Of a DNA stretch of 33,605 bases, positions 397-33,605 are shown in pieces. Within the stretch, counting starts at the first letter, position 1. The number at the start of each line of letters is the position of its first letter. The stretch is from Bacillota bacterium. GTDB taxonomy: Bacteria; Sysuimicrobiota; Sysuimicrobiia; Sysuimicrobiales; Segetimicrobiaceae. A model generated the notes under the pieces. The model was not told where the DNA came from, ran no database searches, and saw nothing but the letters and a program-made list of their open reading frames with translations. The stretch lies in the NCBI GenBank assembly GCA_021324295.1, contig JAJPJJ010000009.1:1-33605 (forward strand), written 5' to 3'. The position numbers and the translations under genes were made by a program.

Positions 397-3152
<2,756 letters not shown>

Positions 3153-16872: not shown

Positions 16873-17559
16873 CTACTTCAGCTCGGCGTAGTACCGGTAC
16901 GAGGACGCGTCGCTTCCGTGCAGCGGGACGCGGTTCAGGACGAGGCCGACGACATTCGTGCCCTTGAGCCGCCGGCGCACGAGCCGGTCCACATCGGGCG
17001 AGCTCGTGCCCGCGCGGAGCACGAGCAGGAGGCCGTCGAGGATCGGGCCGAGTTGCGCGGTGTACGCGACCGCGCCGACCGACGGCAGGTCGACGATGAC
17101 GAGGTCCGTCTCGCCCTGGAGCGAGCCGAGAAGGGCCTCGACGGCTTCGGGCCTGAGCAAGGCGGCCGGGTTTCGAACGGCGGGCCCGGCGGCGAGCAAC
17201 CTCAGCGACGCCGGCGGGGTCACGGTCTGGAGCGCGTCGCCCAGCCGCGCCTGGCCTCCGAGCACGGAGGATAGCCCCACGGCGTTGGGCAGCCCGAAGA
17301 ATCTATGCAGCGAGGGCTTGTAGAGATCGGCATCGACGAGGATCACGCGCTTCCCGGTCTCGCCCATGATGAGCGCGAGGTTTGCCGCGGTCGTCGAGCT
17401 GCCGTGCCGGGGGCCTGCCCCCGTGATCCCCAACGATCGCAAGGATCCCCCGTTCCCGTGGAAGAGGCTGATGCGAAGCCCTCGGTACGCCTCCGCAAAC
17501 GGCGAGCGTTCGCCGTACCTCGTGAACAACTCGGGAGCATCCTTGTCCTGGGCACTCAT
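16873..17559 (-). CDS. CpsD/CapB-type tyrosine-kinase family protein with degenerate Walker A
   Basis: 228 residues, the normal size of a stand-alone BY-kinase partner of a Wzz-type membrane protein. Walker A' (VILVDADLYKP, 72-82), a Walker B-like LVIVDLPSVG (153-162) and a Tyr-rich C-terminus (Y221, Y223, Y224) match the family, as does the SPFAEAYRGLR lead-in. However, the P-loop, normally x-G-K-S-T, reads RHGSSTTAANLA: Ser54 replaces the invariant phosphate-binding Lys (codon AGC). It may be a pseudokinase that still regulates the Wzz protein at 17601-19205. The ATG at 17557-17559 is preceded by AGGAGA at good spacing. Confidence 0.9.
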   Translation of the reverse strand: MSAQDKDAPELFTRYGERSPFAEAYRGLRISLFHGNGGSLRSLGITGAGPRHGSSTTAANLALIMGETGKRVILVDADLYKPSLHRFFGLPNAVGLSSVLGGQARLGDALQTVTPPASLRLLAAGPAVRNPAALLRPEAVEALLGSLQGETDLVIVDLPSVGAVAYTAQLGPILDGLLLVLRAGTSSPDVDRLVRRRLKGTNVVGLVLNRVPLHGSDASSYRYYAELK

Positions 17560-17600
17560 GTCCGGCGTCTCCTGTCGTGCCGGGCTCGCGGGGCGACCGC

Positions 17601-19229: not shown

Positions 19230-20366
19230 TTACAGGCCGACCAAGAGCCGCAGCACGTAGAACACGTTGAAGACGCTTCCGAGCTGGTCCAGGGACAGCC
19301 CTTTGGGAGTGACGTAGACGATATCCCCCGATTGCAGCGCGATGTTCTGGCCCGGGTCCTGGGCCGACAGCGCCTTGGCGACGTTGACCGTCACCATCGT
19401 GGCCTTCGTCCCGTCCACGCGCACGACCTGGACCCGGCCGAGGTTCGCCCTGTCCGTCTGGCCGCCCGCGAGCGCGATGGCATCGACGAGCTTCAGGTTG
19501 GGCGTGAAGTCGTAGGGGCCCGGCTTGTTCACGGCACCCAGGACGGCGATCCGCTCGTGGGACTCGGGCACCACCATCATGTCCCCGGGCTTCAGCGGGA
19601 TGTTGGCGGCGGTGTCCCCCGCCAGCGCCTTCTGCAGATCGACGGGGATCTGCTCCTGGCCGCGGACGATGAACGCCCGCGTGAGCGCCGCCTTCGTCGT
19701 GAGGCCTCCGGCCCCCGCGATGAGATCGGTGACGTGCTGCCCTTCCAGGATGTCGTACGCGCCCGGGTGGGTCACCTCGCCGAGCACGATGATGCGGGGG
19801 TCCGTCTGCGGGATGTAGACCACATCGCCCGGCTCCAGGGCGACATCCGGGTCCTTGCTCTGCTTGATCGCCCCGAGAAGGTCGAGCTGCTGCGTCTCCG
19901 TCTTGCCGCGGATGAGGACGGCCTTCGCGAGGTCCGCCCGGGTCGTCGGGCCCCCGGCGGCGGCCAGCAGCTCCAGGACGCCGGCGCTCGGCTTGAGCTG
20001 ATACTCGCCCGGCCGGTTGACCTGCCCCAGTACGTAGATGCGGCTTGTGCGAAACTCGCGAACCGCGATCGAGATCGACGGGGCCCGAAGATACTTCAGG
20101 TACAGCTTGGTGAGGTCTTTCTCCAGTTGGGCCGTGGTCCTGCCCGCCGCCGCGACCTCCCCGACCAGCGGGAGCGCGATGGTTCCGTCGGGCTTGATCG
20201 TCACCGTGTGGGAGAGGTCGGGCTGCCCGAAGACGGTGATCTCGATCGCATCCCCGGGCCCGAGCAGGTAGGTCTCCTGGCCGGAGGGGGCCGCGGCCGC
20301 GCCTCCGGCCGTCATGCTCGCGATGCTTATCGCCATGAGCACCACAACCCCGGCTCTCGCCGTCAT
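19230..20366 (-). CDS. wza: Outer-membrane polysaccharide export protein (Wza/OPX family)
   Basis: 378 residues. It should form the periplasmic/outer-membrane conduit for the glycan. An N-terminal signal peptide (hydrophobic core GVVVLMAISIASM, Ala-rich cleavage region around 22-27) has no lipobox Cys, unlike E. coli Wza. Then come the Poly_export domain (YLLGPGDAIEITVFGQPDLS, IKPDGTIALPLVGEV) and at least three SLBB repeats, each marked by RIYVLGQVNRPGEY, RIIVLGEVTHPGAY or RIAVLGAVNKPGPY. The C-terminus (SVFNVFYVLRLLVGL) is hydrophobic/amphipathic. The ATG at 20364-20366 is chosen because GGAGG lies 8 bases upstream; an in-frame GTG 5 codons earlier contains that site. It heads the second operon, behind the duplicated leader. 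Confidence 0.93.
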   Translation of the reverse strand: MTARAGVVVLMAISIASMTAGGAAAAPSGQETYLLGPGDAIEITVFGQPDLSHTVTIKPDGTIALPLVGEVAAAGRTTAQLEKDLTKLYLKYLRAPSISIAVREFRTSRIYVLGQVNRPGEYQLKPSAGVLELLAAAGGPTTRADLAKAVLIRGKTETQQLDLLGAIKQSKDPDVALEPGDVVYIPQTDPRIIVLGEVTHPGAYDILEGQHVTDLIAGAGGLTTKAALTRAFIVRGQEQIPVDLQKALAGDTAANIPLKPGDMMVVPESHERIAVLGAVNKPGPYDFTPNLKLVDAIALAGGQTDRANLGRVQVVRVDGTKATMVTVNVAKALSAQDPGQNIALQSGDIVYVTPKGLSLDQLGSVFNVFYVLRLLVGL

Positions 20367-20450
20367 CCGCCTCGCCTCCACGACCGCGCCACGCCCGCGC
20401 GCCGGGTCTCGACCCCGGAGACGACGCGCTGGGATGGCGCGCCCGGGTGT

Positions 20451-20468: not shown

Positions 20469-20519
20469 ATCGGCTGGGCCAGCGCACCCCGGTGAAAGAT
20501 CCCCGCTCGTTGCCGCAAC

Positions 20520-20561
20520 TCAGGCCAACTCAAGAGCTGGTTCGTCGGCCTCGACTCGAAC
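20520..20561 (-). pseudogene. Remnant of a NusG-like gene (last 14 codons)
   Basis: Read in frame, these 42 bases encode VRVEADEPALELA and a TGA stop. The last 14 codons of the nusG-like gene at 31629-32138 encode LRVEADELDLESA and TGA: 9 of 13 residues and 33 of 42 bases agree without gaps, and the stop is in the same place. The remnant begins two bases after the end of the 85-base leader element, whereas in the intact locus about 510 bases separate the two. This is best explained by duplication of leader plus gene followed by deletion of most of the gene. Confidence 0.75.
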
Positions 20562-20563
20562 AC

Positions 20564-20648
20564 GTACCTAGCTGACTCCTCTGGGCTCAGCCTTCCTACC
20601 TGCCCTCTAACGGACGTTTCGTGGCCCTCGAAGGCGTCGCTCGAAAGA
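20564..20648 (-). repeat. 85-base leader element, copy A (upstream of wza)
   Basis: Aligned without gaps to copy B (32181-32265): the first 44 bases in the transcription direction (20605-20648) differ at one position, the middle 18 at about half, and the last 23 (20564-20586) at two. The constant part contains TTTCG and CGAAA that can pair around a GCCT/GGGC mini-hairpin, then AACGTCCGTT. The conservation exceeds that of the adjoining NusG remnant, suggesting selection on the element. I do not recognise it as a known riboswitch. Confidence 0.8.
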
Positions 20649-20693
20649 CGCGAGGACATGCGGCGGGCGATCGACCACCAGGCCGCCGAAGGG

Positions 20694-20715
20694 GAGGGCC
20701 GCAGGGCGGGCCCTC
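20694..20715 (-). terminator. Possible terminator hairpin after the kinase-like fusion gene
   Basis: A 7-bp perfect stem (GAGGGCC / GGCCCTC) with an 8-base loop starts about 50 bases after the stop of the gene at 20766-22421. There is no T-run, so termination is uncertain. Confidence 0.35.
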
Positions 20716-20765
20716 GGGGCCGATCCGTCTCTCTCCAACCCCCCTCAGACTGCGGAGATCATGCC

Positions 20766-22421
20766 CTAGCGCGAGCAGCCTGTGCCGCGAGCCCAGTCTC
20801 CACGGTGGCCGTACCGCAACTCCTCGTGCCACAGGGCGACGAATATGCTGCGGCGTAGCGTATCGGGCGTGGGCCTGCCCGCGACGTCGGCCGCGAACCG
20901 CCGGTACTCGGAGCGTGAGTGGAGCAACCAGGCCAACAGCCGAAGCGGGCCGATGGCGGCCCGGTCCAGGCCGATGCGCCCGGCGTAGCGCGCGAGGCAC
21001 TCGTGCAGCACCGCGCCGGTGGGGGTCGACGGATCCAGGGTCGCCCGGTACGATTCCCGCAGGTGCCCGGGGCTCACGGCGCCGTCGAGTGTGAACGCGA
21101 GAAAGCTCATGAAGTAGATCAGGTCCAGGGCTGGGAGGCCCTCTAGCTCGGCGGATTCCCAGTCGAGCACCGCGAGCTCGCCGGTCGGCGTGACCAGCAC
21201 GTTCCATGGCGCAAAATCCCGCTGCTCGCAGACGAGCGGGAGGGCGCCCAGCGTCGCGACGATCTCTCTCGTCTCTCGAAGCATGCCGCGGTCTATCACG
21301 GGGCCGAATGCCTCTCCAAAATCGGTCAGCGCGGGCTCGATCAGGCGGTCCCACCATCTGTCCCGAGGACAGGGGTGGGGTCGTCCCGCCAACTCCGACA
21401 ACCAGTCCGTCGCCCGGAGCGCCAGGTCGCGGAAGTTGCTTCGCTTGACGACCGTAGAGAGGACCCCGCCGGTGAGCGCCGTCTCGCCCACGGTGAGAAT
21501 CCCCGCGCGCTGCTGGCAAAACAGCACCCTCGGCGCTCCCCGCACGCCGCCGGCGCGCCGCGAGTGGATGGCCTGGAGCGTTGTGGCCTCCCTCATCAGC
21601 CCGGTGGCGGCCTCCGGCACGCGCGGCATTTTCACCGCCACCCACGGGCGGTGGTGGGGTTCGGCGAACACGAGCGCGACGACCTTGGAAACGCTCCGTG
21701 GCCCTCCGGTCAGAACAAGAGAGGAGAGCGCGTCCGGCGGAGGGCCGAACCCCCAGCCCTGCCACCGGGTCCGGATCATGCCCAGGAGCTCGGGCGTCGC
21801 GATCGGGGCGTCCGGCAGCGCGGCGGCCGGGGCGGTCGTCCGGGCGGTGGATGGCTCGCGACCGGCGGGGCGGACCCCTGGCTTGCGGGCGACCGCGCAA
21901 ACGGGGAGGACGAGACCGATCCGCATACCGAGGCGCCAGACACCCTGGAGCACAGCGCTTCGGAGCCGGCGCACCGGGCTGCGCGCTCGTGCCCGGCTGA
22001 TCAGGAAGTAGCGTAAGGCTCCGGGCGCCTCGAGGGGCAGCCAGTACCGCGACCGGGCGAGAAGAGGCCACGGCCAGCACCAGTAGCACGCCACGTCTGT
22101 GAAACCGGCGGTTTCCAGCCGCCGCCGGACGCCCTTCGGTCCGCCGGCCAGGGGAGAATACCACTCCGTGTAACAGGACCCGCCGGGGTGGAGGCTCGCC
22201 CACGCCCGTCTGAGCGTCGCAGCGCCGGGATCGATCGCGACCGCGAGATCGCAATCGCCGCTGGGATCGACGTGCGCGCCGGCCACGCGGTCGGAGATCA
22301 ATCCGACCGCCTGGCCGAGCAGGCCATCGGCGAAGCACATGCTCTTGGCCGGCCGAGGATTGGGCAGCAAGAATCGCCAGTCGGCCCTGCGCAAGAGCTT
22401 GTTGCGGACGTCCTCACGCAT
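20766..22421 (-). CDS. Fusion: methyltransferase-like domain + APH-fold kinase-like domain
   Basis: 551 residues. Residues ~1-145 (NKLLRRADWRFLLPNPRPAKS, DLAVAIDPGAATLRRAWASLHPGG, GVRRRLETAGFTDV) resemble the class I methyltransferase-like half of proteins in glycan clusters. Residues ~210-545 have an aminoglycoside-phosphotransferase fold: VAVKMPR (Lys264), the catalytic loop RDFAPWN (Asp402, Asn407) and the metal motif LDWE (Asp420). The His normally two residues before the catalytic Asp is Gln400 (CEQRD). The substrate is unknown; a sugar or lipid-carrier kinase is possible. The ATG at 22419-22421 overlaps the previous stop by 8 bases; the open frame to the right is not protein-like. Last gene of the first operon. 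Confidence 0.78.
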   Translation of the reverse strand: MREDVRNKLLRRADWRFLLPNPRPAKSMCFADGLLGQAVGLISDRVAGAHVDPSGDCDLAVAIDPGAATLRRAWASLHPGGSCYTEWYSPLAGGPKGVRRRLETAGFTDVACYWCWPWPLLARSRYWLPLEAPGALRYFLISRARARSPVRRLRSAVLQGVWRLGMRIGLVLPVCAVARKPGVRPAGREPSTARTTAPAAALPDAPIATPELLGMIRTRWQGWGFGPPPDALSSLVLTGGPRSVSKVVALVFAEPHHRPWVAVKMPRVPEAATGLMREATTLQAIHSRRAGGVRGAPRVLFCQQRAGILTVGETALTGGVLSTVVKRSNFRDLALRATDWLSELAGRPHPCPRDRWWDRLIEPALTDFGEAFGPVIDRGMLRETREIVATLGALPLVCEQRDFAPWNVLVTPTGELAVLDWESAELEGLPALDLIYFMSFLAFTLDGAVSPGHLRESYRATLDPSTPTGAVLHECLARYAGRIGLDRAAIGPLRLLAWLLHSRSEYRRFAADVAGRPTPDTLRRSIFVALWHEELRYGHRGDWARGTGCSR

Positions 22422-23565
22422 GGCTGTACCGGCGACCGTCCGCCTCCCCGCCATGAGACAGGACGTGCTCGTAGATTTGCGCCACGCGCTGGACCATGTC
22501 CGGTGCCGAGAATTGCCTGTGGACCCGCGCCCTGCCCGCCTCCGCCAATCGCTGCGCAAGCTGCGCGTCGGACAGCACCGTGCGGATGGCGGCGGCCAGA
22601 GCCGCCGGGTCGCCCGGTGGCACGAGCAGGCCCGTCTCCCCGTGAATAACGACCTCGGTCGTCCCCGGGATGGCCGAGGCGATCACCGGCTTGCCGGCCG
22701 CCATCGCTTCGAGGACCGAGAGCGGCAGGCCCTCGAAGAGCGATGGGAGCACCACGAGATCGGCGCACGCGAGCAAATCGGGGATGTCGCGCCGGTAACC
22801 CAGGAACAGCACGCGGTCGCTCACGCCGAGCGCCCGCGCCTGTGCCTCGAGGCTCGCGCGCTCCGGACCCTCCCCGGCGAGGACGAAGACCGCTTCAGGG
22901 ACGAGCGGCGTGGCCTCGAGCAAGTAGCGATGGCCCTTCTGCTTGTCCAGGCGGGCGGCGATGAGAACGACCGGCCGCGCGCGGCCGCCGGTCAACGCGG
23001 CTCGCAGCGTCGCGTTGACCGGTGCGTTCCCGTCAGGCACGGCCACGCCGTTGTGGACGACGTAAATTTTCCAGGTCGGGATGTGAAGCTGCTGGTGAAG
23101 CCGCCTCGCCACCTCATGCGAAACAGCGATGTAGGAATCGATGAAGGGGGCCGCGAGCCGCTGCAGTGCGGAGCTCAGGCGCCCCAGGGCACCCTCCGGA
23201 AAGAGGTGAACCGTGGCGACAACGGCCGGCACCCCGGCCAGACCGGCAGCGATGAGGGCATGCCGGCACGACGACGGGTAGTTCAGGTGCGCGTGAAAGA
23301 CGGCGGGATTCTCGGCCCGCAGCTCCCCGATGAGGTGCGGCACCCGAACGACGAGCGAACGCCGCTCCTGCACGCGCGGCACTTCGCGCAACGTGACATC
23401 GAGGTCCTCCGCCCTTTCGAGCAGCGGCGCGAGCCCCGGCTCGGGCCGGTGAAACAACACCGGCCGCCAGCGTCGCCGGTCCAGACCGGCGAGGAGATGG
23501 AGCACGACCTGCTCGGTCCCCCCGCATTCGACGCTGTCGAGAAAGTAGATCACGGTCCGGGGCAT
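22414..23565 (-). CDS. Family 4 glycosyltransferase
   Basis: 383 residues. GT-B enzyme adding a sugar to the growing glycan on the cytoplasmic face. The N-terminal acceptor domain has VIYFLDSVECGGTEQVVLHL (GGTE loop) and FHAHLNYP. The donor domain has LIAARLDKQKGHRYLLEA, GEGPERASLEA, VLFLGYRRDIPDLLACADL and the E-x7-E element in EGLPLSVLEAMAAGKP. A GTG at 23575-23577 in the same frame would add four residues; I prefer the ATG at 23563-23565, though neither has a clear ribosome-binding site. It follows the GT2-methyltransferase gene by 15 bases. Confidence 0.94.
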   Translation of the reverse strand: MPRTVIYFLDSVECGGTEQVVLHLLAGLDRRRWRPVLFHRPEPGLAPLLERAEDLDVTLREVPRVQERRSLVVRVPHLIGELRAENPAVFHAHLNYPSSCRHALIAAGLAGVPAVVATVHLFPEGALGRLSSALQRLAAPFIDSYIAVSHEVARRLHQQLHIPTWKIYVVHNGVAVPDGNAPVNATLRAALTGGRARPVVLIAARLDKQKGHRYLLEATPLVPEAVFVLAGEGPERASLEAQARALGVSDRVLFLGYRRDIPDLLACADLVVLPSLFEGLPLSVLEAMAAGKPVIASAIPGTTEVVIHGETGLLVPPGDPAALAAAIRTVLSDAQLAQRLAEAGRARVHRQFSAPDMVQRVAQIYEHVLSHGGEADGRRYSHA

Positions 23566-23580
23566 GGGCGCAACCACGTG

Positions 23581-25302
23581 CTATCGTCGCGGCTTGATGG
23601 CTCGCATCGTGACCACGAGTTCATAGTCGGGATCCCGGTAGTCCAGTTCGTCCCGGCGTAGCTCGTGCGTCGCCATCCCGTGAAGAAAGGCGACGGCCGC
23701 CAGGACATTGCCATGGGCGCCGACGTCGATCGTCCCCGACGGAAAGGCCTCCTCGAGCAGCCGCCGGGCCGACCCGGTCGTGAAGTTCCAGTAATGGCCC
23801 CATCGCTCCGCGTCCCATCGGCTGATCTGGCTGATCCCCCCGGCCGTCGCCAGCAGGACCCCCCCAGGCTTCAGGATGCGGTGCAGCGTCCGAAGCGCGG
23901 TCCGCACGTCGTAGATGAACTGCAGCGTCTGCGTCAGCACGATGCAGTCAAAGGTATCCGACGGGACATGATCGGCGCGCGTCAAGTCCGCGACGATCGT
24001 CGCCTTGGGGTTGCCTTCCAGGACGTCGAGCACGTCGCTCCTGGCGACACGGTCGCCCCCGAACCTGCGGGTGTAGGAGTCGGTCCCGATCTCCAGGACG
24101 CGTCCCCGGATGTCCGCCGCGTGGACGGCGAGGAACCGCTCGATATAGTACCGGTCAATCGGGAGCCCGCCCCGGTCCTTGCCAAATGCCCGGCTCAAGG
24201 GGGTGACCCGGCGCAGGCTTCCGAAGCGCACCCGCCCGGGCGGCGGGGAGTGGGTGCGCCCTCTCCGTTGGGCCTGTAGCCAGCGGCGCACCGGCGCCGG
24301 AAGCGTCCGTCGTGCTGTCCGCTTCAGTAACTCTCTCGTGGCGTCCGGCAGATGCCTCCGCAGCACGGGCAACGCCGCGCTCGGGTCGGTCAGGGCCCCG
24401 CGCCAGAACCGGCTGCTCCTCCAGGGGCGTCCCGCGGTCTCCCAGCTTGCCTGGAGGACGGCCAGCATGGCGCGGGTGCGCGCCTCGAGCCGCGTGCCCC
24501 GTGCGTCGGGGTGACGGTCGAGGTACCCGTTGACCACCTGGAGCGTTCCCTGCCAGACCGCCGCCATGCTGCTGGAATTCGACCCGGCATGCCGGCGATA
24601 GTACAAAGCGATCTTGTCCTCTCCGCGCACCCGCGCGTGCTCGAGTGCCCGGAGGGTGAAGTCCCAGTCCTGGCACACGGCGATCCCCGGGTCCCATGGC
24701 CCGGCAGCCTCCACGACGCGCCGTGGGAACAGCAGGGCCTGTATTCTGACATCGAAGCCGTTGAGCAGGCAGGCGGTCACGGCAGCGCCCTGGATCCGCG
24801 AGCCCCGCTTCTGCAGGGGACGCAGGTGCGCGTCGCAGAACATCGTCGCCCCATAGGCGACGACGTCCTCGTCGCTCCCGACGAGGCGCAGAAGGCGAGC
24901 GGTGCTGTCGGGATCGAGCACGTCGTCGCCGTCGACGAAGCGCAGCCGGCTGCCCCGCGACGCGGCGATGCCTGCGTTCCGCGCCCGGGACAGCCCCCCG
25001 TGTTCGATGCGCACGATGCGCAGACGCTCGTCGCTGATCCGGCTGAGCAGCCCCGCCACAGGCTCGGGGCACCCGTCGTCGACCACGATGAGCTCCACGC
25101 GACAGCCGCGCTGGCCGAGGGCGCTCTCGACCGCCTGGATCAGCCACTCCGGCCGCGGCCGCCACACGCACATGATGAGGCTCACGAGGGGATCCGCGTG
25201 CCCGTCGAGCTCCGGAACGGTCGCCCGGAGCGGCTGCCGGAGCGGCGCCGTCCGGCCCGCGCACGGAGGGGCGGTCGGGAGGTCAGGGTGGGCAGGCGGC
25301 AT
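23581..25302 (-). CDS. Fusion: family 2 glycosyltransferase + SAM methyltransferase
   Basis: 573 residues with two catalytic domains. Residues ~38-300 are a GT-A glycosyltransferase (LVSLIMCVWRPRPEWLIQAV, LIVVDDGCPE, GLSRARNAG, metal motif DGDD at 124-127). A linker (RVTPLSRAFGKDRGGLPIDRYYIERFL shortened: SRAFGKDRGGLPIDRYYIE) leads to a methyltransferase at ~395-570 with motif I VLEIGTDSYTRRFGG (402-416) and FDCIVLTQTLQFIYD and LKPGGVLLAT. The methyltransferase may cap or methylate the sugar added by the first half. The ATG at 25300-25302 has GAGGACGAG upstream. The first ~37 residues are Pro/Ala-rich, and the true start could be later. Confidence 0.92.
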   Translation of the reverse strand: MPPAHPDLPTAPPCAGRTAPLRQPLRATVPELDGHADPLVSLIMCVWRPRPEWLIQAVESALGQRGCRVELIVVDDGCPEPVAGLLSRISDERLRIVRIEHGGLSRARNAGIAASRGSRLRFVDGDDVLDPDSTARLLRLVGSDEDVVAYGATMFCDAHLRPLQKRGSRIQGAAVTACLLNGFDVRIQALLFPRRVVEAAGPWDPGIAVCQDWDFTLRALEHARVRGEDKIALYYRRHAGSNSSSMAAVWQGTLQVVNGYLDRHPDARGTRLEARTRAMLAVLQASWETAGRPWRSSRFWRGALTDPSAALPVLRRHLPDATRELLKRTARRTLPAPVRRWLQAQRRGRTHSPPPGRVRFGSLRRVTPLSRAFGKDRGGLPIDRYYIERFLAVHAADIRGRVLEIGTDSYTRRFGGDRVARSDVLDVLEGNPKATIVADLTRADHVPSDTFDCIVLTQTLQFIYDVRTALRTLHRILKPGGVLLATAGGISQISRWDAERWGHYWNFTTGSARRLLEEAFPSGTIDVGAHGNVLAAVAFLHGMATHELRRDELDYRDPDYELVVTMRAIKPRR

Positions 25303-25338
25303 CCGGGCTCGTCCTCGGGTCTCTCTCCCGCGGTGGCG

Positions 25339-26277
25339 TCAGCGAGCGTGGGAGGCCAGCGCCCGCTGCAGGAGCTCCTTCACGCGGGTCGCGTAGCGCC
25401 GGGCGCGCCCTCGCACGCGCTGCAGCGTCGGATGCCGGTAGGGCCACAGTACCCGGCGCAGAGCCGTCCGGAGCTCGGCGTCGGTGACGCCCTGTCGCGA
25501 CAGGTATCCTTCAAGCCAGGTCAAGAAGACCAACCGCACAGACTGCTGCTGTCGCGCCTTGTTCACCACGGCAACGCACGAATCCGGGTGCTGCCGATAC
25601 CTGTCCCAGCACTCGTTCGCGACGAACACAGGTTCCCGGAGGTAGACCTTGGCCAGGAAGGCTCGATCCTCATAGAGCTGGTAGATGCCGCGAAAGGACT
25701 CCTCGAATCCACCGACGCGTTCGATCATGTCACGGCGAAACATCAGGTCCGACGGACAGGGCGTGATCGCCTGCCCCAGCGGGGACGTGGCCTTCAGGAG
25801 CGTCGGCGGCCTCACCAGGGTATCCGTCGGCACGCCGAGCTCGGGCACATGGTCGCGGCAGATGTCTTCAGCGTTCCCGGTCCAGCTGTGCCAGTACTCG
25901 CTGCGCCCGTACACCATCGCGGCCTCGGGCTGTGCGCCGAGGATCGCCACCTGGCGCTCCAGCTTGTGCGGCAGCCACACGTCGTCGGCATCCAACAGCG
26001 CGACGTACTCGCCCCGGGCGTGGCGGACGCCGAGGTTGCGCGACGCGCACACGCCTCGATTCTCGTGCCCATCGTGCTCCAGATATCGCACCTTCCCGGG
26101 ACGCCCGTCGGCATAGTGCCGCGCGATCGCGGTCGCCGTGGCGGCGGACCCATCGTCGATCAGGAGCAGCTCCCAGTGGTCATAGGTCTGGGCCATGACG
26201 CTCTCGATGGCTTCCCGCAGGAAGGCCTCGCCGTCCAGGAAGGGAGTGATGACGGAGACGAGCGGCTTGGGGTTCAT
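25339..26277 (-). CDS. Family 2 glycosyltransferase
   Basis: 312 residues. GT-A enzyme starting PLVSVITPFLDGEAFLREAIE, with LLLIDDGSAATATA, CASRNLGVRHARGEY, the metal-binding DADDVW and, later, QLYEDRAFLAKV, which contains the acidic ED seen in this subgroup. It is a close relative of the GT2 at 3920-4981, so the two may catalyse similar linkages at different points of the repeat unit. The ATG at 26275-26277 begins 30 bases after the preceding GT4 stop. Confidence 0.94.
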   Translation of the reverse strand: MNPKPLVSVITPFLDGEAFLREAIESVMAQTYDHWELLLIDDGSAATATAIARHYADGRPGKVRYLEHDGHENRGVCASRNLGVRHARGEYVALLDADDVWLPHKLERQVAILGAQPEAAMVYGRSEYWHSWTGNAEDICRDHVPELGVPTDTLVRPPTLLKATSPLGQAITPCPSDLMFRRDMIERVGGFEESFRGIYQLYEDRAFLAKVYLREPVFVANECWDRYRQHPDSCVAVVNKARQQQSVRLVFLTWLEGYLSRQGVTDAELRTALRRVLWPYRHPTLQRVRGRARRYATRVKELLQRALASHAR

Positions 26278-26307
26278 CGCGTCTGTGGCCCTGCCCGGCC
26301 TCGACAG

Positions 26308-27681
26308 CTACGGCGCCGCCCGCATCGCGGCGTGCCTGGCGTCTCTTCGGCCGTCGAGGAGAAAGGCGCCGAGTTGCTCGCCGATCGCGCCGAGAGAAAA
26401 GCTCGCCTCGACGCGGCGTCTGGCGCGCCGTCCGAGCTCGCGGCTCCACGCCTCGTCGTCCAGGAGTCGGCCGAGCGCCAGCGCGAGCCGCGCGGCATCG
26501 CCGCGCGGGACGATGAGCCCGCCCGACGCCTCGCCGCCCTCGAGGATGTCCGGTATCCCGTGCGCGTCCGTGGCAACGACGGGCAGGCCGCACCCCATCG
26601 CCTCGAGCGGCGCCACCGGGAACCCCTCGTGGCGCGACGGAAACGCGTACACGTCCGCCGCCGACAGGTAACGGCGAATCGTGAGGCGGTCGTGCACGAA
26701 CTCGTCGACCCAGAGCACGGTGCCCGGCCGCACCGCCGCGACGCGTTGCCGCAACGCGTCGGCGTCCTGCCCCGTGCCGATGAGCAGGAGCCGGAGCGGG
26801 CGCGCCGGGCGCTCGTGCAGGAGCCCTTCCCACGCGTCCAGCAACGTGTCCAGGCCCTTCGGCCCTATCGAGATGCGTCCGTGCCACGCGACGACCCTGG
26901 CATCCGAGGGGATGCCGAGGGCAGCCCGCGCCTCCTGGCGATCCATCGGACACCAGAGCTCCGGGTCTATGGGGTTGAAGATCCGCGCGACCTTCCCCGC
27001 CGGGACGCCATAGCGATCCCGCACTCGCTGGATCTCCGTTTGCGTCCCGATGATCAAGCCCGCACAGGCGCGCGTCGAGAGCGGACGCAGAAGGCGCTCG
27101 AGGCGGCTCCTCTGGTAGTCGCCTCCTTGGAACGCGCCGAACACTGGCACCCGCATCAACCGGCCCAGCAGGACGCACACGTCGAAGCGCGGATACTCGT
27201 ACTCCTGGCAGAGGATCGCGCTGCACCGTTCATGGCGCAGTATGCGGGCGAGCAGCACCGGCGGGGTGGTCAGATAGAGCACCACTTCCTTCAGCAGCAC
27301 GAGCGCGGGGCGGACCAGCACCCGGGCCCCCCGGATCTCTCCGAATGCCTCCTCCACCGATCGTGCGTACGGACCGGACGGGCTCAGCATCTTGCGCCGC
27401 AGGACGCGGTAGAGTCCCGGGGCCGGCAGCATGTAGACGGGAGCGCCGGTCGGCCGATGCGTGAGCCGCGTCGGCTTCGCGACCCGCGTCGTCACGCAGA
27501 GCAGCACGACCCGTATCCCGACCCGCTGCAGCGCCTCGACGTAGCGGAACATGTAGCTGCCCGTGAACTCGCGGCAGAAGGACTCCAGCGACACGCCAAG
27601 GGTGTCCAGGAAGTCTTCGATGACGTTGCCCCACGGCAGAAAGGCGATCGTCGGGGGCGCGCCGCTCAGGCCTGCGCTCAT
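26308..27681 (-). CDS. Family 4 glycosyltransferase
   Basis: 457 residues. GT-B enzyme. The acceptor half is unusual in beginning with a TIAFLPWGNVIEDFLDTLGV segment and in its long region SYMFRYVEALQRVGIRVVLL; the donor half is standard: KVARIFNPIDPELWCP, VVAWHGRISIGPKGLDTLLDA, LIGTGQDADAL, ADVYAFPSRHEGFP and E-x7-E in EGFPVAPLEAMGCGLP. The ATG at 27679-27681 overlaps the previous gene as ATGA. The frame is open further right but without protein-like sequence. Confidence 0.93.
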   Translation of the reverse strand: MSAGLSGAPPTIAFLPWGNVIEDFLDTLGVSLESFCREFTGSYMFRYVEALQRVGIRVVLLCVTTRVAKPTRLTHRPTGAPVYMLPAPGLYRVLRRKMLSPSGPYARSVEEAFGEIRGARVLVRPALVLLKEVVLYLTTPPVLLARILRHERCSAILCQEYEYPRFDVCVLLGRLMRVPVFGAFQGGDYQRSRLERLLRPLSTRACAGLIIGTQTEIQRVRDRYGVPAGKVARIFNPIDPELWCPMDRQEARAALGIPSDARVVAWHGRISIGPKGLDTLLDAWEGLLHERPARPLRLLLIGTGQDADALRQRVAAVRPGTVLWVDEFVHDRLTIRRYLSAADVYAFPSRHEGFPVAPLEAMGCGLPVVATDAHGIPDILEGGEASGGLIVPRGDAARLALALGRLLDDEAWSRELGRRARRRVEASFSLGAIGEQLGAFLLDGRRDARHAAMRAAP

Positions 27682-28658
27682 GCGCCGGTCTCCCGGAGGC
27701 GGCTCTCGCGCAACGCCAGGCGCGCCCCGAGCCAGTAGCAATAATCCAGGACGAAGTCGTACAGCACCCACAGCCGGCGCGGTCGCCGTCGCTCCACCAG
27801 TTCGACCAGCCTGATCACCCACGCCGGCGTCGGAGGAAGGGTCGCGCTGAGGCCCAATAGCGCCGCCCGCGCAAGGCGCCACTTGTACGAGGCCTGATGG
27901 AACGTCGCGAGCTTGAGGTGCGCGAACGCCTCAGGGTGCTTGCTGGCGAGCAGCACCGCGGTCCGCCCCTTCGAGATCGTGTCGCGGGAGAGTTCGGAAA
28001 AGCTCTTCGTGTAGTACTGGCGGGCGAGTGCCTCCGCTTCGTACTTGAGCTGGATGCCGGCGCGCGATAGACGCAGCCAGAGCTCCAGGTCCTCGTTGCC
28101 GTATCGCTCGAATGCTTCATCGAGTAGCCCTACCTCGAGGAACCGCTCACGCCTCATGGAAAAATTGCCGCTGTAGAAGTCGCGAAGCGTGAAGACGTGG
28201 TCCGCGCGGGCCAGGGTCGCGAGATGTTGGTTGAATTTGGCGGCGATGTACGCGGTGACCGGCGGCGATGAGCCGTTGGCGTCGATGGGCACTGCCCCCA
28301 GCACACCGCGCCGCGCGCCATCGGCGTGAGCGGCGAGATGTGCGCTCAGGCACCCCGGCGCCGGCGCCATGTCGTCGTCGAGCAGGACGACCACCTCGCC
28401 GCACGCGGCACGGATGCCCGCGTTGCACGCCGCGGCGCGGCCGCTGTGGGGCTGCCAGAGCACGCGCAGGGCGTACGGCGCTGGGAACCGATTCGCCATC
28501 TCGCGCGTGCCGTCGTCCGACCCGTCGATCGAGATGATCACCTCGTAGTCGTGTGCGGGCAGCGTTTGCCGGGCGAGGTGGTCCAGCAGGCGCCGCACCG
28601 CCGCGCGGCGCTGGTAGGTGGGGACCACGACGCTCAGGCGGTAGGGCGGAGCGCGCAC
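27678..28658 (-). CDS. Family 2 glycosyltransferase
   Basis: 326 residues from a GTG at 28656-28658 that has AGGAG six bases upstream and begins two bases after the previous stop. GT-A fold: RLSVVVPTYQRRAAVRRLLD, VIISIDGSDDGT, GRAAACNAGIRAACGEVVVL, metal motif LLDDDM, then GNFSMRRERFLEVGLLDE and YGNEDLELWLRLSRAG with the conserved ED base. The C-terminal ~60 residues contain weakly hydrophobic stretches that may sit at the membrane. The open frame extends over 1 kb to the right antisense to real coding sequence; that part is not used. Confidence 0.92.
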   Translation of the reverse strand: MRAPPYRLSVVVPTYQRRAAVRRLLDHLARQTLPAHDYEVIISIDGSDDGTREMANRFPAPYALRVLWQPHSGRAAACNAGIRAACGEVVVLLDDDMAPAPGCLSAHLAAHADGARRGVLGAVPIDANGSSPPVTAYIAAKFNQHLATLARADHVFTLRDFYSGNFSMRRERFLEVGLLDEAFERYGNEDLELWLRLSRAGIQLKYEAEALARQYYTKSFSELSRDTISKGRTAVLLASKHPEAFAHLKLATFHQASYKWRLARAALLGLSATLPPTPAWVIRLVELVERRRPRRLWVLYDFVLDYCYWLGARLALRESRLRETGA

Positions 28659-28660
28659 GG

Positions 28661-29845
28661 TCAGCTCCTGCCGGTGGCGCAGCCGTGGGCCACCGGCGCA
28701 GGTGCAAGCAGCGACCGGAACAGTTCCTCGTAGGCGGCCACGGTGTGGTCGTGGGAGAACCACGTCGCGATCCTGCGCGCGGCCGCGGTGGCCATCGCGC
28801 GGCGTTCCGCGGCGGATAGTCCGAGCCCGCGTAGGAGCGCGGCCGCCAGGGCATCCGGTGAGTCGGGTTCGACCAGGAAGCCGGTGAGGGAGTCTTCGAT
28901 CACCTCGGGTGCGCCGCCGACGCGGGTTGCGACGGCCACGGCGCCGCTCGCGCCCGCCTCGAGCAACACCCGCGGCAGACCCTCGCTGCGCCTCCGCGAC
29001 GGGACCACGACGAGGTCGGCGCCGCGATACAGGGCGGGCAGCTCCCCCTGATCTACGCGGCCCATGAACCGCACGTCGGGTGCCACCCCGAGGTGCTGCG
29101 CGAGCGCGCGCCACCTGTCTGTCTCCGGTCCCGCGCCGGCCACGTAGAGGGGGATCCCAGGTGCGCGCGCTCGAACCTGCCGCCAGGCCTCCAGCAATAT
29201 GTCGATCCCCTTGGATGGGTCGAGGCGGCCGACGTAGAGGACGTACCGCTGCCGCGCGGGGCCCTCCGGCCCGGCCGGTTCTGTGAGCCACGACGGGTCG
29301 ATGCCATTGTGGATGGCCCGACACCGATCGCGGAGGAACGGGTACAACGCGATGAGGTCCCGCGCCAGGGCGTCGCTCACTGCGGTCACCGCGTCGGCCC
29401 GCCTGAACAGCCGTCGCAGCCAGGCCTGGAGCCACCGGTCGTCCGTGCCCTCTGCTCTGATTTCGCTTTCGGCCCGTGCCGTCACAACGAGTCGCCAGGT
29501 GTGGGGGAGAACGTGTGCGCCGATCACGGGAAGCGACTGGCGCGCGGGACATTGAACGGACACGATGTCGGGTTTGAACGCCCCCATGATCCGCCGGACG
29601 TGACGGGTGCTGCGGAGGAGCCCTCTCCACGACCACGGACGACGAGGCGGGTAGACCTCCGGGACGGCCCACACCTGCCCTGCAAAGCGGTGGACTGTCC
29701 GTGTGGATCGGGGCGATCCCATTTCGACGATGCCGACGCGGTGGCCTCGCCGGCGGAGCGCTTCCGCTAGAAGGAGGACCGAGACTTGCGAACCGCCCAG
29801 GTCATCCAGCCGCCACGGGTACACGAACAGGATCGTCATCAGCAT
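28661..29845 (-). CDS. Family 4 glycosyltransferase
   Basis: 394 residues. GT-B enzyme: TILFVYPWRLDDLGGSQVSV at the N-terminus (GGSQ loop), KPDIVSVQCPARQS, then VLYVGRLDPSKGIDILLEAW, VAGAGPETDRW, VRFMGRVDQGELPALYRGAD and E-x7-E in EGLPRVLLEAGASGAV. The best start is uncertain: ATG at 29843-29845 or at 29837-29839, two codons apart, neither with a clear ribosome-binding site. It follows the deacetylase gene by 37 bases. Confidence 0.93.
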   Translation of the reverse strand: MLMTILFVYPWRLDDLGGSQVSVLLLAEALRRRGHRVGIVEMGSPRSTRTVHRFAGQVWAVPEVYPPRRPWSWRGLLRSTRHVRRIMGAFKPDIVSVQCPARQSLPVIGAHVLPHTWRLVVTARAESEIRAEGTDDRWLQAWLRRLFRRADAVTAVSDALARDLIALYPFLRDRCRAIHNGIDPSWLTEPAGPEGPARQRYVLYVGRLDPSKGIDILLEAWRQVRARAPGIPLYVAGAGPETDRWRALAQHLGVAPDVRFMGRVDQGELPALYRGADLVVVPSRRRSEGLPRVLLEAGASGAVAVATRVGGAPEVIEDSLTGFLVEPDSPDALAAALLRGLGLSAAERRAMATAAARRIATWFSHDHTVAAYEELFRSLLAPAPVAHGCATGRS

Positions 29846-29882
29846 GGCACGCCGGTGGAGCCCGCTGCGGGGGAGGATCCCT

Positions 29883-30677
29883 TCACGGGCCGGTGCTCTT
29901 CGCTGCGCTGGTGCCACCGGCCGGGGAGTCTCCGCGCCGCCTCAGGCCTGCCATGACATCCGCGCTGCCATGCGTGACCCAGTGCACCTGCTGTGGCCGT
30001 CCGTGCCGCAGCAGCTCTGGAACCGTGACGAAACTGAACGTGCCGGCCAAGCGATTCAAGAGGAGCCTTACCGCATCCAGCGTCGCGCCCCGGTCGAAGT
30101 ACTGCTCGTCCACGGCGTCGACGAGTCCGTCGTGGAAGGCCACCACGCTCCCGGGTCGAAGCGCGTCCATCACCCGGGCGGCGATCGTGCTCGGTGAGCG
30201 GTCGCGCCAGTCGGCCGCCCAGACGCTCCAGGCGACCACTCGATACCCGAGGAGTAGAGCATCCAGCCTCGACCAGATATCTTGGTGACCGTACGGGGGT
30301 CGGAACAGACGCTGCCCGTGCGGTGCGAGGGCTCGTTCGCACGCGCGGATCTGTGCCCGCCGTGCCCGAGCGGAGAGCGAGGGGAACGACGGGTGGTCCC
30401 ACGAGTGGTTGCCGATCGCGTGTCCGGAGGCAGCGACGCGCCGCAGGAGTCCCGAATGCCGATGCGCGGCCTGCCCGACCATGAAGAAGGTCGCTCGTGC
30501 GCGATACGCATCCAGTATCTCGAGCAGACGGGGCGTCCAGACCGGGTCAGGGCCGTCGTCGAACGTGAGCGCGGCAACTGGCTCCTGCGTGGAGACGTGC
30601 GTCATCGTCCCGAGGGCGCGCACGGCGACTGGACGGCAGAGCCGCCGTAGGAACCGCAGGCCACCTGAGGCTCGCAT
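29883..30677 (-). CDS. NodB-type polysaccharide deacetylase
   Basis: 264 residues. CE4 metal-dependent deacetylase expected to remove N- or O-acetyl groups from a sugar. All five motifs are visible: TFDDGP with the catalytic Asp40 and metal Asp41, the metal-binding HSWDH (His91, His95), RPPYG (126-130), the W150/W153 region, and FHDG with His182. There is no obvious signal peptide or membrane anchor, so it may act in the cytoplasm on a lipid-linked intermediate, unlike most secreted relatives. The ATG at 30675-30677 begins 10 bases after the SDR stop. Confidence 0.92.
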   Translation of the reverse strand: MRASGGLRFLRRLCRPVAVRALGTMTHVSTQEPVAALTFDDGPDPVWTPRLLEILDAYRARATFFMVGQAAHRHSGLLRRVAASGHAIGNHSWDHPSFPSLSARARRAQIRACERALAPHGQRLFRPPYGHQDIWSRLDALLLGYRVVAWSVWAADWRDRSPSTIAARVMDALRPGSVVAFHDGLVDAVDEQYFDRGATLDAVRLLLNRLAGTFSFVTVPELLRHGRPQQVHWVTHGSADVMAGLRRRGDSPAGGTSAAKSTGP

Positions 30678-30687
30678 CGGCGTGACG

Positions 30688-31455
30688 CTATTGGGGCTTC
30701 GCCAGCGGCCGGATCGTGACGTCGGTGACTTCGGCGGTGCGCGGCAAGGTGAGCGCGCTGAGCACGACGGCGGCGGCGTCCTCCGGCTGCACGAGGCGGT
30801 CCGGCCTGTACGCCCGTCCCTCGGTGCGGTGCACGCCTTCCTGCATCGGGCTGGCCATCCGGCCGAGGAACACGCTGAGGATGCGGACGCCGTCCCCGTT
30901 CACCTCGTCCCGGAGGCTGTCCGCGACGGCCCGCAACGCGTGCTTGGTGGCCGCGTACTGCCCGACGTTTCCCCTGGCGCTCAGGCCCGCGCTCGAGTTG
31001 ATGAACACGATCTGGCCCTGGCAGCGCTTGATCAGCGGGAGCAGGCGCTGGGTGAGGATATAGGGAGCACGAACGTTGATCCGGTATTGCCGGTCGAGCG
31101 CCGCGGGCGAGGCCTCTTCGAGCCGGCCTAGGGCGATGACGCCGGCGCTGTGCACCAGGATGTCTACCTGCTCCAGGTGGCTGCAGAGGACCGCGCAGAG
31201 CTCCTCGATCCGCTCGTCCGACGCAAGATCGGCGGGATACGACCGAGCCTCGGCGCCCATGGCACGAGCGACGTCGGCCACGGTCCCCAGCCGTTCCGCG
31301 GACCTGCCGACAAGGTGGAGCGCCGCGCCCCGGGCGGCCAGCGCGACGGCGATCGCCCGCCCCAGGCCGCTGCTGGCGCCGGTGACGACCGCGACGGTTC
31401 CCCCGAGAGGAGGGGGGACGTCAGGGTTGGCCGCGGCGGCCGTCGCCTCTAACAT
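30688..31455 (-). CDS. Short-chain dehydrogenase/reductase
   Basis: 255 residues. Classical SDR with cofactor motif VVTGASSGLG, the DLAS adenine-loop segment, HSAGVIALG in place of the usual NNAG, catalytic Ser in NSSAGL and YAATK (Y-x3-K). VGRSAERL after beta-2 suggests NADP preference. The substrate cannot be told; a role in precursor synthesis is inferred only from position as first gene after the nusG-like gene. The ATG at 31453-31455 has AGAGGA directly adjacent, which is closer than ideal. About 17 Ala/Pro-rich residues precede the fold. Confidence 0.9.
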   Translation of the reverse strand: MLEATAAAANPDVPPPLGGTVAVVTGASSGLGRAIAVALAARGAALHLVGRSAERLGTVADVARAMGAEARSYPADLASDERIEELCAVLCSHLEQVDILVHSAGVIALGRLEEASPAALDRQYRINVRAPYILTQRLLPLIKRCQGQIVFINSSAGLSARGNVGQYAATKHALRAVADSLRDEVNGDGVRILSVFLGRMASPMQEGVHRTEGRAYRPDRLVQPEDAAAVVLSALTLPRTAEVTDVTIRPLAKPQ

Positions 31456-31553
31456 TCCTCTACCCGCATCTCTGGCTCGATGCGCGTCGCCCCGGCACAC
31501 GGCTTTGGGGACGCCGCTCTCATCCCACGAGGCAGGAGGCGCGTTCCCGGCAT

Positions 31554-31571
31554 AGCTCCGCCCTCGAGTGC
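31554..31571 (-). repeat. Conserved block 2, copy B, between nusG-like gene and SDR gene
   Basis: On the minus strand it reads GCACTCGAGGGCGGAGCT, the partner of the block at 20451-20468. It lies in the 173-base gap between the nusG-like stop and the SDR start, about 100 bases before the SDR start. The rest of the gap shows no gene or clear promoter. Confidence 0.6.
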
Positions 31572-31628
31572 GGCCGCCGGGCAACTGCGCACTCCTGAGA
31601 GGTTCCCCCCGAGGCTCGTCTTCCTGGT

Positions 31629-32138
31629 TCAGGCGGACTCAAGGTCGAGCTCGTCGGCCTCGACTCGGAGCACCCGCCCCAACAACTCCAGCAGCACCCG
31701 CACCCGGCCGGCTCGTGGGACAGCGGACTCGAGAATCGCTTCCAGGCCGGCCAGGGAGCCCGATCGGAACCGCACCCGGTCGCCGGCGGCGAACCGGTGC
31801 CCCGGCCGCACGAACCCCAGATCCCGCGTCCGCTCCTGGATGGCTTGGATCGCCTCGTCGGGCACCGGGACAGGTTCGTCCGCGACGCCGAGAATGCGCT
31901 GCACGCCGGGACTCCACCGGACCGCGTGCCAGCAGTGCGGGCTACGGTCGACCGCCTCCATCTGGACGAACAGATAGCCGGGGAACAACGGCTCCAGCCC
32001 GGTATGCCGGATGCCGTTCCGGCGACGAGCAACCTCGACGAGCGGAAGAAACGCCGGGATCGCCCTGCTCGCGAGGTGACGGGCCACCCGGCCCTCGCCA
32101 TGCCGCTTCGTCTGCACGGTATACCAAGCCACGCTCAT
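31629..32138 (-). CDS. NusG-family specialised antiterminator (RfaH/LoaP-like)
   Basis: 169 residues. Residues 1 to ~105 form an NGN domain (AWYTVQTKRHGEGRVARHL, LEPLFPGYLFVQME, VRWSPGVQRILGV), and ~112-169 a KOW domain (FAAGDRVRFRSGSLAGLEAILE). It lacks the extra domains of housekeeping NusG and sits at the head of a glycan locus, as RfaH, UpxY and LoaP paralogues do. It would bind elongating RNA polymerase and allow transcription of long operons. The ATG at 32136-32138 has a weak AGGGA site. It is preceded by the 85-base element also found before wza, making the element a candidate recruitment or control site. Confidence 0.92.
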   Translation of the reverse strand: MSVAWYTVQTKRHGEGRVARHLASRAIPAFLPLVEVARRRNGIRHTGLEPLFPGYLFVQMEAVDRSPHCWHAVRWSPGVQRILGVADEPVPVPDEAIQAIQERTRDLGFVRPGHRFAAGDRVRFRSGSLAGLEAILESAVPRAGRVRVLLELLGRVLRVEADELDLESA

Positions 32139-32180
32139 GGAATCCCTGTGCCTCGCCGCGCGCCATGCCCTCTGCCGCCG

Positions 32181-32265
32181 GCACCTAGCTCACTCCTCTG
32201 GGCGCGCGCTCCTCACCTCCTCTCTAACGGACGTTTCGCGGCCCTCGAAGGCGTCGCTCGAAAGA
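32181..32265 (-). repeat. 85-base leader element, copy B (upstream of the nusG-like gene)
   Basis: Partner of 20564-20648; 73 of 85 positions agree by hand alignment with no gap, and weaker similarity extends to about 32290. It ends 43 bases before the nusG-like start. Its last 23 bases contain AGAGGAG but no start codon at the right distance, so this is not a normal ribosome-binding site. The element can also be read as a short peptide in frame with the upstream hypothetical gene. Confidence 0.8.
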
Positions 32266-32333: not shown

Positions 32334-32335
32334 TC
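32319..32335 (-). terminator. Small hairpin overlapping the stop of the hypothetical gene
   Basis: GACGTCC and GGACGTC form a 7-bp perfect stem with a 3-base loop overlapping the TGA at 32334-32336. No T-run follows; it may be a weak terminator or a stop-codon-proximal structure. Confidence 0.3.
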
Positions 32336-32798
32336 AGGATGCGCCCAGCAGCGCGTTCCGCACCTCAGCGTCGCTCTGCGCGAGCAGCTCGCGCTCGCCG
32401 TCCTCCTCGCAGAGGATCTCCTGGTAGATGGCGTAGCCCTCAGCGGAGATCGAGGACCGTAACTTCGCCTCAAGATCGAGCTTCGTGTAGAAGGCCCGTT
32501 CCAGGTAGATCTTCCGGTACAGCCACAGGCAGTGGCGGTCCACATGCTCGAGCGCCGTCATCGTGCGAAAGCTGAGATCCCTGCGATCGGCCGCCCCCGC
32601 AAGTTGCCTGTAACAATTCCGCAGGTCCTTGGATAGGAAGCACAATTCGGCTGTGAGGTCCTGAAGCGGGACGGTTCCCCGTGCGGCCTCCCTCACGAGC
32701 CGCAGGAGGCGTCCCTCAACGAACTCGACAGTGCTGGACACGTCGGCGAGGAGACGATGGATGTGCTCGGGGTCGCGCTCCTCCGCACCTGACGACAT
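32334..32798 (-). CDS. Small helical protein of unknown function
   Basis: 154 residues from the ATG at 32796-32798, which has GGAGG five bases upstream. I do not recognise a family. The composition (many Leu, Arg, Glu, no membrane segment) and heptad-like spacing (LLADVSSTVEFVEGRLLRLV, LCFLSKDLRNCYRQL) predict an all-alpha, soluble, possibly four-helix protein. Its place between a response regulator and the nusG-like gene, 195 bases before the latter, suggests a regulatory role but nothing in the sequence proves it. The same frame continues for 47 protein-like codons after the TGA. Confidence 0.7.
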   Translation of the reverse strand: MSSGAEERDPEHIHRLLADVSSTVEFVEGRLLRLVREAARGTVPLQDLTAELCFLSKDLRNCYRQLAGAADRRDLSFRTMTALEHVDRHCLWLYRKIYLERAFYTKLDLEAKLRSSISAEGYAIYQEILCEEDGERELLAQSDAEVRNALLGAS

Positions 32799-33087
32799 GC
32801 GCGCCTCCATCGGCACCGGCAGTTGCCGTGTCCGCAAGATCCCGCTCCGCGTAGCGGGCCTCCCAGGATCGCACATCCACGCGCGGGTGCTCGCCGAAGA
32901 CATGCCCTCGACACGGCAATGCCGACGGCGGCCGGTCTCGACTAGGAAGGTTTTGAGACGGGGAACGTATTCCTACGCGCGAGCGGGTATTTGCGCGCCT
33001 CCTTTGAAGAGGCGGCTGTCTCGATTGAAATAGCCGATCGCGTACGAGAAGCGGGCTTACCGGTGGGACGGCAAAGCGGTGGCCGGG
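32799..33087 (-). other. 289-base gap between response regulator and hypothetical gene
   Basis: No gene was recognised. A hairpin CGCCTC / GAGGCG with a 7-base loop lies at 32996-33014. The area around 32941-33045 is locally richer in A+T than its surroundings (runs such as TTTTGAG and GATTGAAATAG on the plus strand), making it the most likely place in the regulatory end for a promoter reading left, but I could not identify a convincing -35/-10 pair. Confidence 0.4.
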
Positions 33088-33605
33088 TCAGGTGCCCCTG
33101 ATGAGGCCGTGCTCCACGGCGAAGACCGCGGCGTGCGCCCGGTTCCGCAACCCGAGCTTGTGGTAGACGGCCCGCAGCCGCGTCTTCACCGTGGCCTCGG
33201 AGAGCAGCAGCTCCGCCGCGATCTGTTTGTCGCTCAGACCCTGCACCACGCCGGCGAGCACGTCGATCTCGTGCCGGGTGAGCGGGGGCTCCGGCCCTCG
33301 CGCGGAGCCGGCCGGCTGACCCGCCGCCGCCCCATTCGTGGCATAGTGCTCGATGAGCTGCTTCGCGATCACGGGGCTGAGCATCGTTCTGCCGCCGTGC
33401 GCGGCCCGGATGGCGTTCACCAGGTTGGCCGGGGCGATGTCCTTGAGGACGTAGCCGATCGCCCCGGCCGCCGCGGCCTTGCGGAAGCCGTCCTGCTGGG
33501 CGCAGGCCGTGAGGACCAGGACCTGGGCGCGGGGGCAGCGCTGCCTGATCGCCCGGATGGCCGCCGGGCCCTCGCCATCCGGCAGCATGATCTCGATGAG
33601 CACGA
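33088..33605 (-). CDS. NarL/LuxR-type response regulator with Glu in place of the phospho-acceptor Asp, N-terminus outside window
   Basis: About 172 residues are visible; the gene runs off the right edge. The receiver part shows VLIEIMLPDGEGP, where the phospho-acceptor Asp of the usual LIDIMLPDGEG pattern is Glu (codon GAG), then the conserved Thr (VLVLTA) and Lys (GYVLKDI). The C-terminal DNA-binding domain is a GerE/LuxR helix-turn-helix: LTRHEIDVLAGVVQGLSDKQ, AAELLLSEATVKTRLRAVYHKLG. Glu often mimics phospho-Asp, so the protein may be constitutively active or controlled otherwise. Being at the head of the locus it is a candidate regulator of it. No sensor kinase is visible. Confidence 0.9.
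   Translation of the reverse strand, partial: VLIEIMLPDGEGPAAIRAIRQRCPRAQVLVLTACAQQDGFRKAAAAGAIGYVLKDIAPANLVNAIRAAHGGRTMLSPVIAKQLIEHYATNGAAAGQPAGSARGPEPPLTRHEIDVLAGVVQGLSDKQIAAELLLSEATVKTRLRAVYHKLGLRNRAHAAVFAVEHGLIRGT

Follow-up and report, generated by a model that had tools for sequence, protein, structure and literature searches.

A leader element repeated at seven loci of one genome may tie exopolysaccharide, lasso-peptide and nonribosomal-peptide genes to a NusG paralogue

Introduction

In the Klebsiella cps locus, the JUMPstart element is followed by wza, wzb and wzc, then by a stem-loop that is a possible attenuator, and then by wbaP (PMC3438125). LoaP binds an RNA hairpin of the UNCG type in the leaders of secondary-metabolite operons, where antitermination requires the hairpin (PMC12691694), and the EAR (epsC) RNA of Bacillus is a leader RNA of an exopolysaccharide operon that is associated with antitermination (PMC2864571). 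For NusG paralogues that are encoded within the operons they regulate, a 2020 study described the modes of recruitment as unknown (PMC7593976).

Here we analysed a 33,605-nt stretch of DNA, hereafter the window, which is the whole of contig C84 in a genome assembly of 4.02 Mb (129 contigs, 96% complete, 4.7% contaminated). The original prediction for this DNA was that an 85-base element, shared by the leaders of a NusG-family gene and of a wza exporter operon, is a cis-acting site in DNA or RNA through which the NusG paralogue controls both itself and the operon. This interpretation was found to be partly supported.

Results

Realignment of the two copies of the element in the window (copies 1 and 2; Table 1) confirmed the predicted coordinates, equal length, same orientation and gapless match over 85/85 positions, 73 of them identical, and likewise the predicted distribution of identity, the core matching at 43/44 positions, the middle at 9/18 (about half), the tail at 21/23 and the adjoining nusG remnant at 33/42. 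A BLAST search of the genome with its nusG copy as query retrieved the wza copy (E 4.7e-24) and a third copy, on contig C115 (E 1.6e-11); copies 1 and 2 are much more alike than chance would allow. The two copies do precede a NusG-family gene and a wza operon, as had been read from the letters, and these genes and copies are all on the minus strand.

The product of the gene behind copy 1 is a specialised paralogue of the NusG family, taken broadly, distinct from canonical NusG, and its gene is the only one in the genome besides the canonical nusG, for which a nusG-like match was found on contig C27. By cut-off the protein is neither RfaH nor LoaP, scoring 104.4 bits with the RfaH model TIGR01955 (cut-off 144.5) and 69.9 bits with the LoaP model NF033641 (cut-off 125); it is 46-58% identical to its orthologues in the phylum. 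Neither Pfam nor NCBIfam gave a match for the 189-aa protein encoded between copy 1 and the truncated response-regulator gene. In relatives, the position immediately upstream of nusG is often taken by a LuxR-type gene, and several relatives carry before nusG a different small gene with a common ...RELYYILR-like end.

Table 1. Features of the window and positions of the element copies on other contigs
Feature	Coordinates	Strand	Remarks
Polyprenyl glycosylphosphotransferase, WcaJ/WbaP type	14343..15719	-	PF02397; TIGR03025 211 bits, below cut-off; downstream of hairpin
Perfect 19-bp GC-rich hairpin	16820..16864	-	Candidate attenuator, no U-tract
Wzc-like BY-kinase domain protein	16873..17592	-	TIGR01007 107.4 bits, just below cut-off
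Wzc-like chain-length determinant	17601..19205	-	PF13807; TIGR03007 140 bits, below cut-off
Wza-type polysaccharide export protein	19230..20381	-	TIGR03027 200.9 bits, above cut-off; PF02563, SLBB; likely ATG near 20366
nusG 3'-end remnant	20520..20561 (20561→20520)	-	33/42 identical (79%) to 31629-31670; ends ...EADEPALELA, then stop
Element copy 2	20564..20648 (20648→20564)	-	Leader of wza operon; about 180-200 nt before wza start
Specialised NusG paralogue, 169 aa, NGN + KOW	31629..32138 (32138→31629)	-	PF02357 E 3.8e-22
Element copy 1	32181..32265 (32265→32181)	-	Leader of NusG-paralogue gene; 42 nt before ATG
189-aa protein, family unassigned	32334..32903	-	Between response regulator and copy 1
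NarL/LuxR-type response regulator	33088..33603	-	PF00196, PF00072; cut by contig end; candidate alternative reader
Element copy 3	C115:1919→1845 (BLAST match 1846-1921)		Precedes amino-acid adenylation gene with carrier domain
Element copy 4	C115:21482-21556		Precedes NTP_transf_5 (nucleotidyltransferase) gene, same region as lasso cluster
Element copy 5	C115:31185→31108		68 nt before 31-aa peptide MKRASQKPVPRKLGPISRIT...
Element copy 6	C100:1513→1438		80 nt before precursor (M/V)RATYTKPVLMKHGLLRRIT...
Element copy 7	C33:31351→31277		109 nt before 98-aa Cys-rich ORF, no family assigned

The homology between copies 1 and 2 extends about 22 nt 5' of the 85 bases, and its 3' end, near 20564, is the junction to a nusG 3' end of 42 bases, which lies directly 3' of copy 2 in the wza leader. 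The figure of 85 bases is therefore partly accidental, since the 3' limit is a deletion junction; the predicted element held as an alignment and gave way as a unit, the stretch conserved across the seven copies described below being about 75 nt. The stub shows the wza leader to be the relic of a duplicated leader plus nusG, and the similarity of copies 1 and 2 is partly due to descent from that duplication. A nusG gene followed by wza within roughly 0.5-1.5 kb was found in nine relatives, and two copies alone prove little because the two genes are adjacent in many relatives. In the simplest history, leader, nusG and wza would once have formed one unit, which a duplication or an insertion then split into leader with nusG (at 32 kb) and leader with stub and wza (at 20 kb), the two being separated by about 11 kb of glycan genes.

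The core had also been said to look selected when set against the stub. That comparison gave p = 0.0067 (Fisher test) with blocks that were picked after the differences had been seen, and p = 0.32 when all 85 bases (86% identity) were compared with the stub (79%), and as drawn from two copies alone the argument for selection on the core is weak; the case for selection is made by the other five copies. A reading of the element as coding sequence was rejected although copies 1 and 2 share a frame, as the core has no synonymous pattern and the nonribosomal-peptide synthetase (NRPS) copy carries a 1-nt indel. Repeats of nusG leaders within the genomes of relatives were also set aside as coding similarity only.

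When 43 phylum genomes were searched with a sequence-only model built from three copies, the two best matches outside its training set fell in the genome studied here, on contigs C100 (E 7.7e-4) and C115 (E 0.003), with a further match on C115 (0.02) ranking just behind matches in four other genomes. A model of six copies then returned an additional one on contig C33 (E 1.1e-6). With the seven-copy model, R3, all seven copies scored between 4e-19 and 1e-14, values that show consistency and not discovery because the seven copies are the training set; the next-best match over 12 genomes of the family was at 0.003, and no match at E <= 5e-4 was obtained in 385 other genomes. The element was found in none of the other 42 phylum genomes, even where the NusG orthologue is 46-58% identical, nor at the orthologous nusG loci of relatives, and a scan for the exact core over 84,980 GTDB genomes gave four matches, at chance level only. 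Weak matches in three phylum genomes were rejected, as they fall within coding sequence, next to duplicated genes or ahead of rpsA. The element is lineage-specific and, among the genomes searched, confined to this one. The recurrence expected under the original prediction was seen within the genome itself, in seven copies, and failed in the 42 others, where no relative with the nusG paralogue carries the element, though nusG and wza often form one unit there. Tetranucleotide profiles of contigs C84, C115, C100 and C104 were similar (correlation 0.91-0.96) and that of C33 was lower (0.85), which is a weak test of contamination because another genome also reaches 0.91; the C33 copy is the least secure of the seven.

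Every one of the seven copies faces the gene downstream of it at a distance of about 40-200 nt; for those genes whose start is clear, the gaps are 42, about 180-200, 68, 80 (or 110) and 109 nt. Biosynthetic units, counting nusG itself, lie behind six of the seven, and at least four of the five copies beyond nusG and wza precede natural-product genes. The adenylation gene behind copy 3 (TIGR01733 330 bits, PF00501, PF00550) runs off its contig. A condensation domain, the only one in the genome, was observed at C104:19703-21031, where it runs off the contig end, and this part and the adenylation-carrier part at C115:1-1845 may belong to one NRPS gene split by the assembly. Downstream of copy 5, the 31-aa peptide is followed by genes for a PqqD-like protein, a lasso B2 protein, an HprK-related kinase and a second NTP_transf_5 protein. 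This unit is a lasso-peptide cluster (C115:29000-31200), to which both NTP_transf_5 genes are counted, comprising the only B2 protease gene in the genome (NF033537, 62.5 bits, cut-off 33), a PqqD-like B1 (PF05402, above cut-off) and a precursor that was assigned by eye. C100 has, at 1300-1440, an orphan precursor of lasso type whose leader is related; this precursor matches the lasso family model NF033528 with an E value of 9.5e-6, short of its cut-off, and shares KPV...G...RITQ with the peptide behind copy 5. The target on C100 seems to consist of one short precursor gene, with a tRNA after it. Operons of the kinds found behind the copies are among those controlled by NusG paralogues. That part of the original prediction in which a cis-acting leader site is common to the nusG paralogue and wza stood, and gained five more units in the genome, all in the one orientation.

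Alignment of the seven copies gave a first conserved block, TTCGAG(C), a second, TTCGA(G)G, 12-13 nt later in six of the seven, and then (A/G)T(C/T)C..TT..GA.G and GGCAGGTG, with nearly fixed spacing between blocks (indels of 1-2 nt only). Each copy carries 2-4 UUCG tetranucleotides, which sum to 18 over the seven copies compared with 6.4 in shuffles (shuffle maximum 13), and the stems closing them vary. For the seven copies RNAalifold predicted two helices, one of 8 bp between the two TTCGAG blocks and one of 3 bp (GGC/GCC). The covarying stems that would have supported the original prediction did not emerge, pairing and covariation of the predicted helices being no higher than in shuffles (91/500); an unbiased helix scan of the copies stayed within the null, and single-copy folds were unremarkable (z -0.85, -1.16 and +0.72). 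Going by the modelled helices, an RNA structure of the element is possible.

No Rfam family matched the window at gathering score, and searches at loose thresholds gave chance matches only. A resemblance of copy 5 to the glutamine riboswitch was rejected, having no Rfam match, as was a c-di-GMP riboswitch, which is frequent in the phylum and has no instance in the window. Riboswitches of the c-di-GMP-I-GGC type were observed in all 43 phylum genomes, 13 of them in the genome studied here, and some lie near or upstream of nusG/wza loci in relatives (G001:C255:4588-4662, G018:C115:402-483 and G016:C21:13182-13259). The ops consensus GGCGGTAGNNTG had four one-mismatch matches in the window (3.1 expected), none of them inside the element, and ops was rejected as the motif of the element, its matches being at chance level; JUMPstart (RF01707) had no match in the window.

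No sigma-70-like promoter was found at 32120-33100 (copy 1) or at 20360-21200 (copy 2), and no intrinsic terminator consensus was found in the leaders of nusG or wza. Sigma-54 and ECF promoter readings were rejected by eye, as their spacing does not fit. Copy 1 ends 42 nt before the ATG, and therefore its promoter must sit upstream of or inside the element, so that RNA polymerase likely transcribes through it. This short gap, together with the lack of a sigma-70-like promoter, makes a transcribed element more likely than an upstream operator.

Downstream of wza, the perfect hairpin is placed between the wzc-like kinase gene, which ends at 16873, and the next gene, which starts at 16786; it has a fold z of -6.25 and is the strongest perfect inverted repeat in the window, where no excess of intrinsic terminators was found. 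The gene order, with the WcaJ/WbaP-type transferase gene (15719→14343) beyond the hairpin, parallels that of Klebsiella cps, and RfaH-controlled capsule operons have a hairpin at this place; the parallel favours control at elongation. Elsewhere in the window, a 17-bp inverted repeat was observed at 3094-3130, near the start of an ABC-2 type transporter gene, and segments of glycosyltransferase genes are duplicated at 4554-4905/25907-26258 and at 5516-5951/6907-7343, the two pairs having an identity of about 72-74%.

Discussion

The reading that we favour, at a probability of roughly 0.45, is that a transcribed leader of about 75 nt marks one biosynthetic regulon and is probably read by the NusG paralogue of the genome. 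The regulon would comprise exopolysaccharide, a lasso peptide and a nonribosomal peptide, products that would probably be switched on together, and by analogy with described systems the paralogue is the likeliest reader of the element. RNA polymerase would transcribe the element in the leader, and UUCG-rich small hairpins of the nascent RNA, or the exposed non-template strand, would recruit the specialised NusG paralogue; polymerase loaded with it could then transcribe past barriers, the 19-bp hairpin behind the wzc-like kinase gene being an example, and copy 1, before the paralogue's own gene, would provide feedback. Against this reading stand the C100 target, a single short gene where antitermination is not needed, the position of copy 1 before nusG, by which the paralogue's expression would depend on itself, predicted helices that are no better than shuffles, orthologous nusG loci that lack the element, a C33 target that is a small ORF with no family assigned, and a window in which intrinsic terminators are not in excess.

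The near-constant block spacing, the TTCGAG-like blocks that occur twice at a distance of 12-13 nt in six of the seven copies and the lack of covariation would suit a double-stranded DNA operator, or an unusual promoter, acting at initiation and bound by a common transcription or sigma factor; the NarL/LuxR-type regulator whose gene is at 33088-33603 would be one candidate. In relatives, a LuxR-type gene is often found directly 5' of nusG, and the short monocistronic target on C100 suits initiation control. However, some 75 conserved bases are long for an operator, the 42 nt between copy 1 and the ATG leave no space for a downstream promoter, no promoter-like site was found in or around copies 1 and 2, and relatives that have the LuxR gene lack the element, and we consider a DNA site of this kind unlikely. 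A self-contained structured RNA, either a riboswitch or a protein-binding attenuator, which would respond to a signal with the NusG paralogue playing no part, would fit the leader position, the 8-bp and 3-bp RNAalifold helices and a phylum rich in leader RNAs (c-di-GMP-I-GGC in 43/43 genomes, some by nusG/wza loci); it becomes quite improbable in view of the lack of an Rfam match even at loose thresholds, of helices no better than shuffles and of an element absent from all other genomes searched, unlike most riboswitches. That the copies have no common function, copies 1 and 2 being alike through duplication of leader and nusG and the others being a lineage-specific intergenic repeat, is very improbable in spite of the stub after copy 2, which proves duplication, of an 85-base identity not significantly above that of the stub and of the confinement to one genome, as all seven copies face the downstream gene (0.5^7 = 0.008), six of the seven units are biosynthetic or nusG, the blocks stay conserved between copies far more diverged from each other than copies 1 and 2 are, and the copy number is low.

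Building on the reading in which the NusG paralogue reads the transcribed leader, we put forward, with more doubt than confidence, the wider proposal that one paralogue coordinates exopolysaccharide, lasso-peptide and nonribosomal-peptide output through a new UUCG-rich leader of about 75 nt, acting as RNA or as non-template DNA, which has spread to seven loci in one lineage. If true, the recruitment code would be distinct from ops and from the LoaP hairpin and, to our knowledge, would be the first such code to include RiPP precursor genes. The element is a concrete candidate for a recruitment code, offering seven natural variants and one candidate reader, and it predicts which of the natural-product genes in an uncultured lineage are expressed together with exopolysaccharide, which would help to awaken such clusters in a heterologous host.

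Among the known systems, EAR resembles the element in being a leader of an exopolysaccharide operon (PMC2864571) and differs in that the present element matches no Rfam family; nor is EAR described in that paper as common to a NusG-paralogue gene or to natural-product operons. With LoaP the locus shares a NusG paralogue within biosynthetic operons and a UUCG-bearing common leader before natural-product operons (PMC12691694), whereas the element here lacks a single conserved UNCG hairpin, its leader is larger and GC-rich, and the protein falls below the LoaP cut-off. As with RfaH and ops, a cis element in the leader of a surface-polysaccharide operon is accompanied by a specialised NusG paralogue, and a stem-loop follows wzc, as in Klebsiella cps (PMC3438125); in contrast to that system, the element is about 75 nt long and does not resemble ops, the protein scores under the RfaH cut-off, and the targets include RiPP and NRPS genes.
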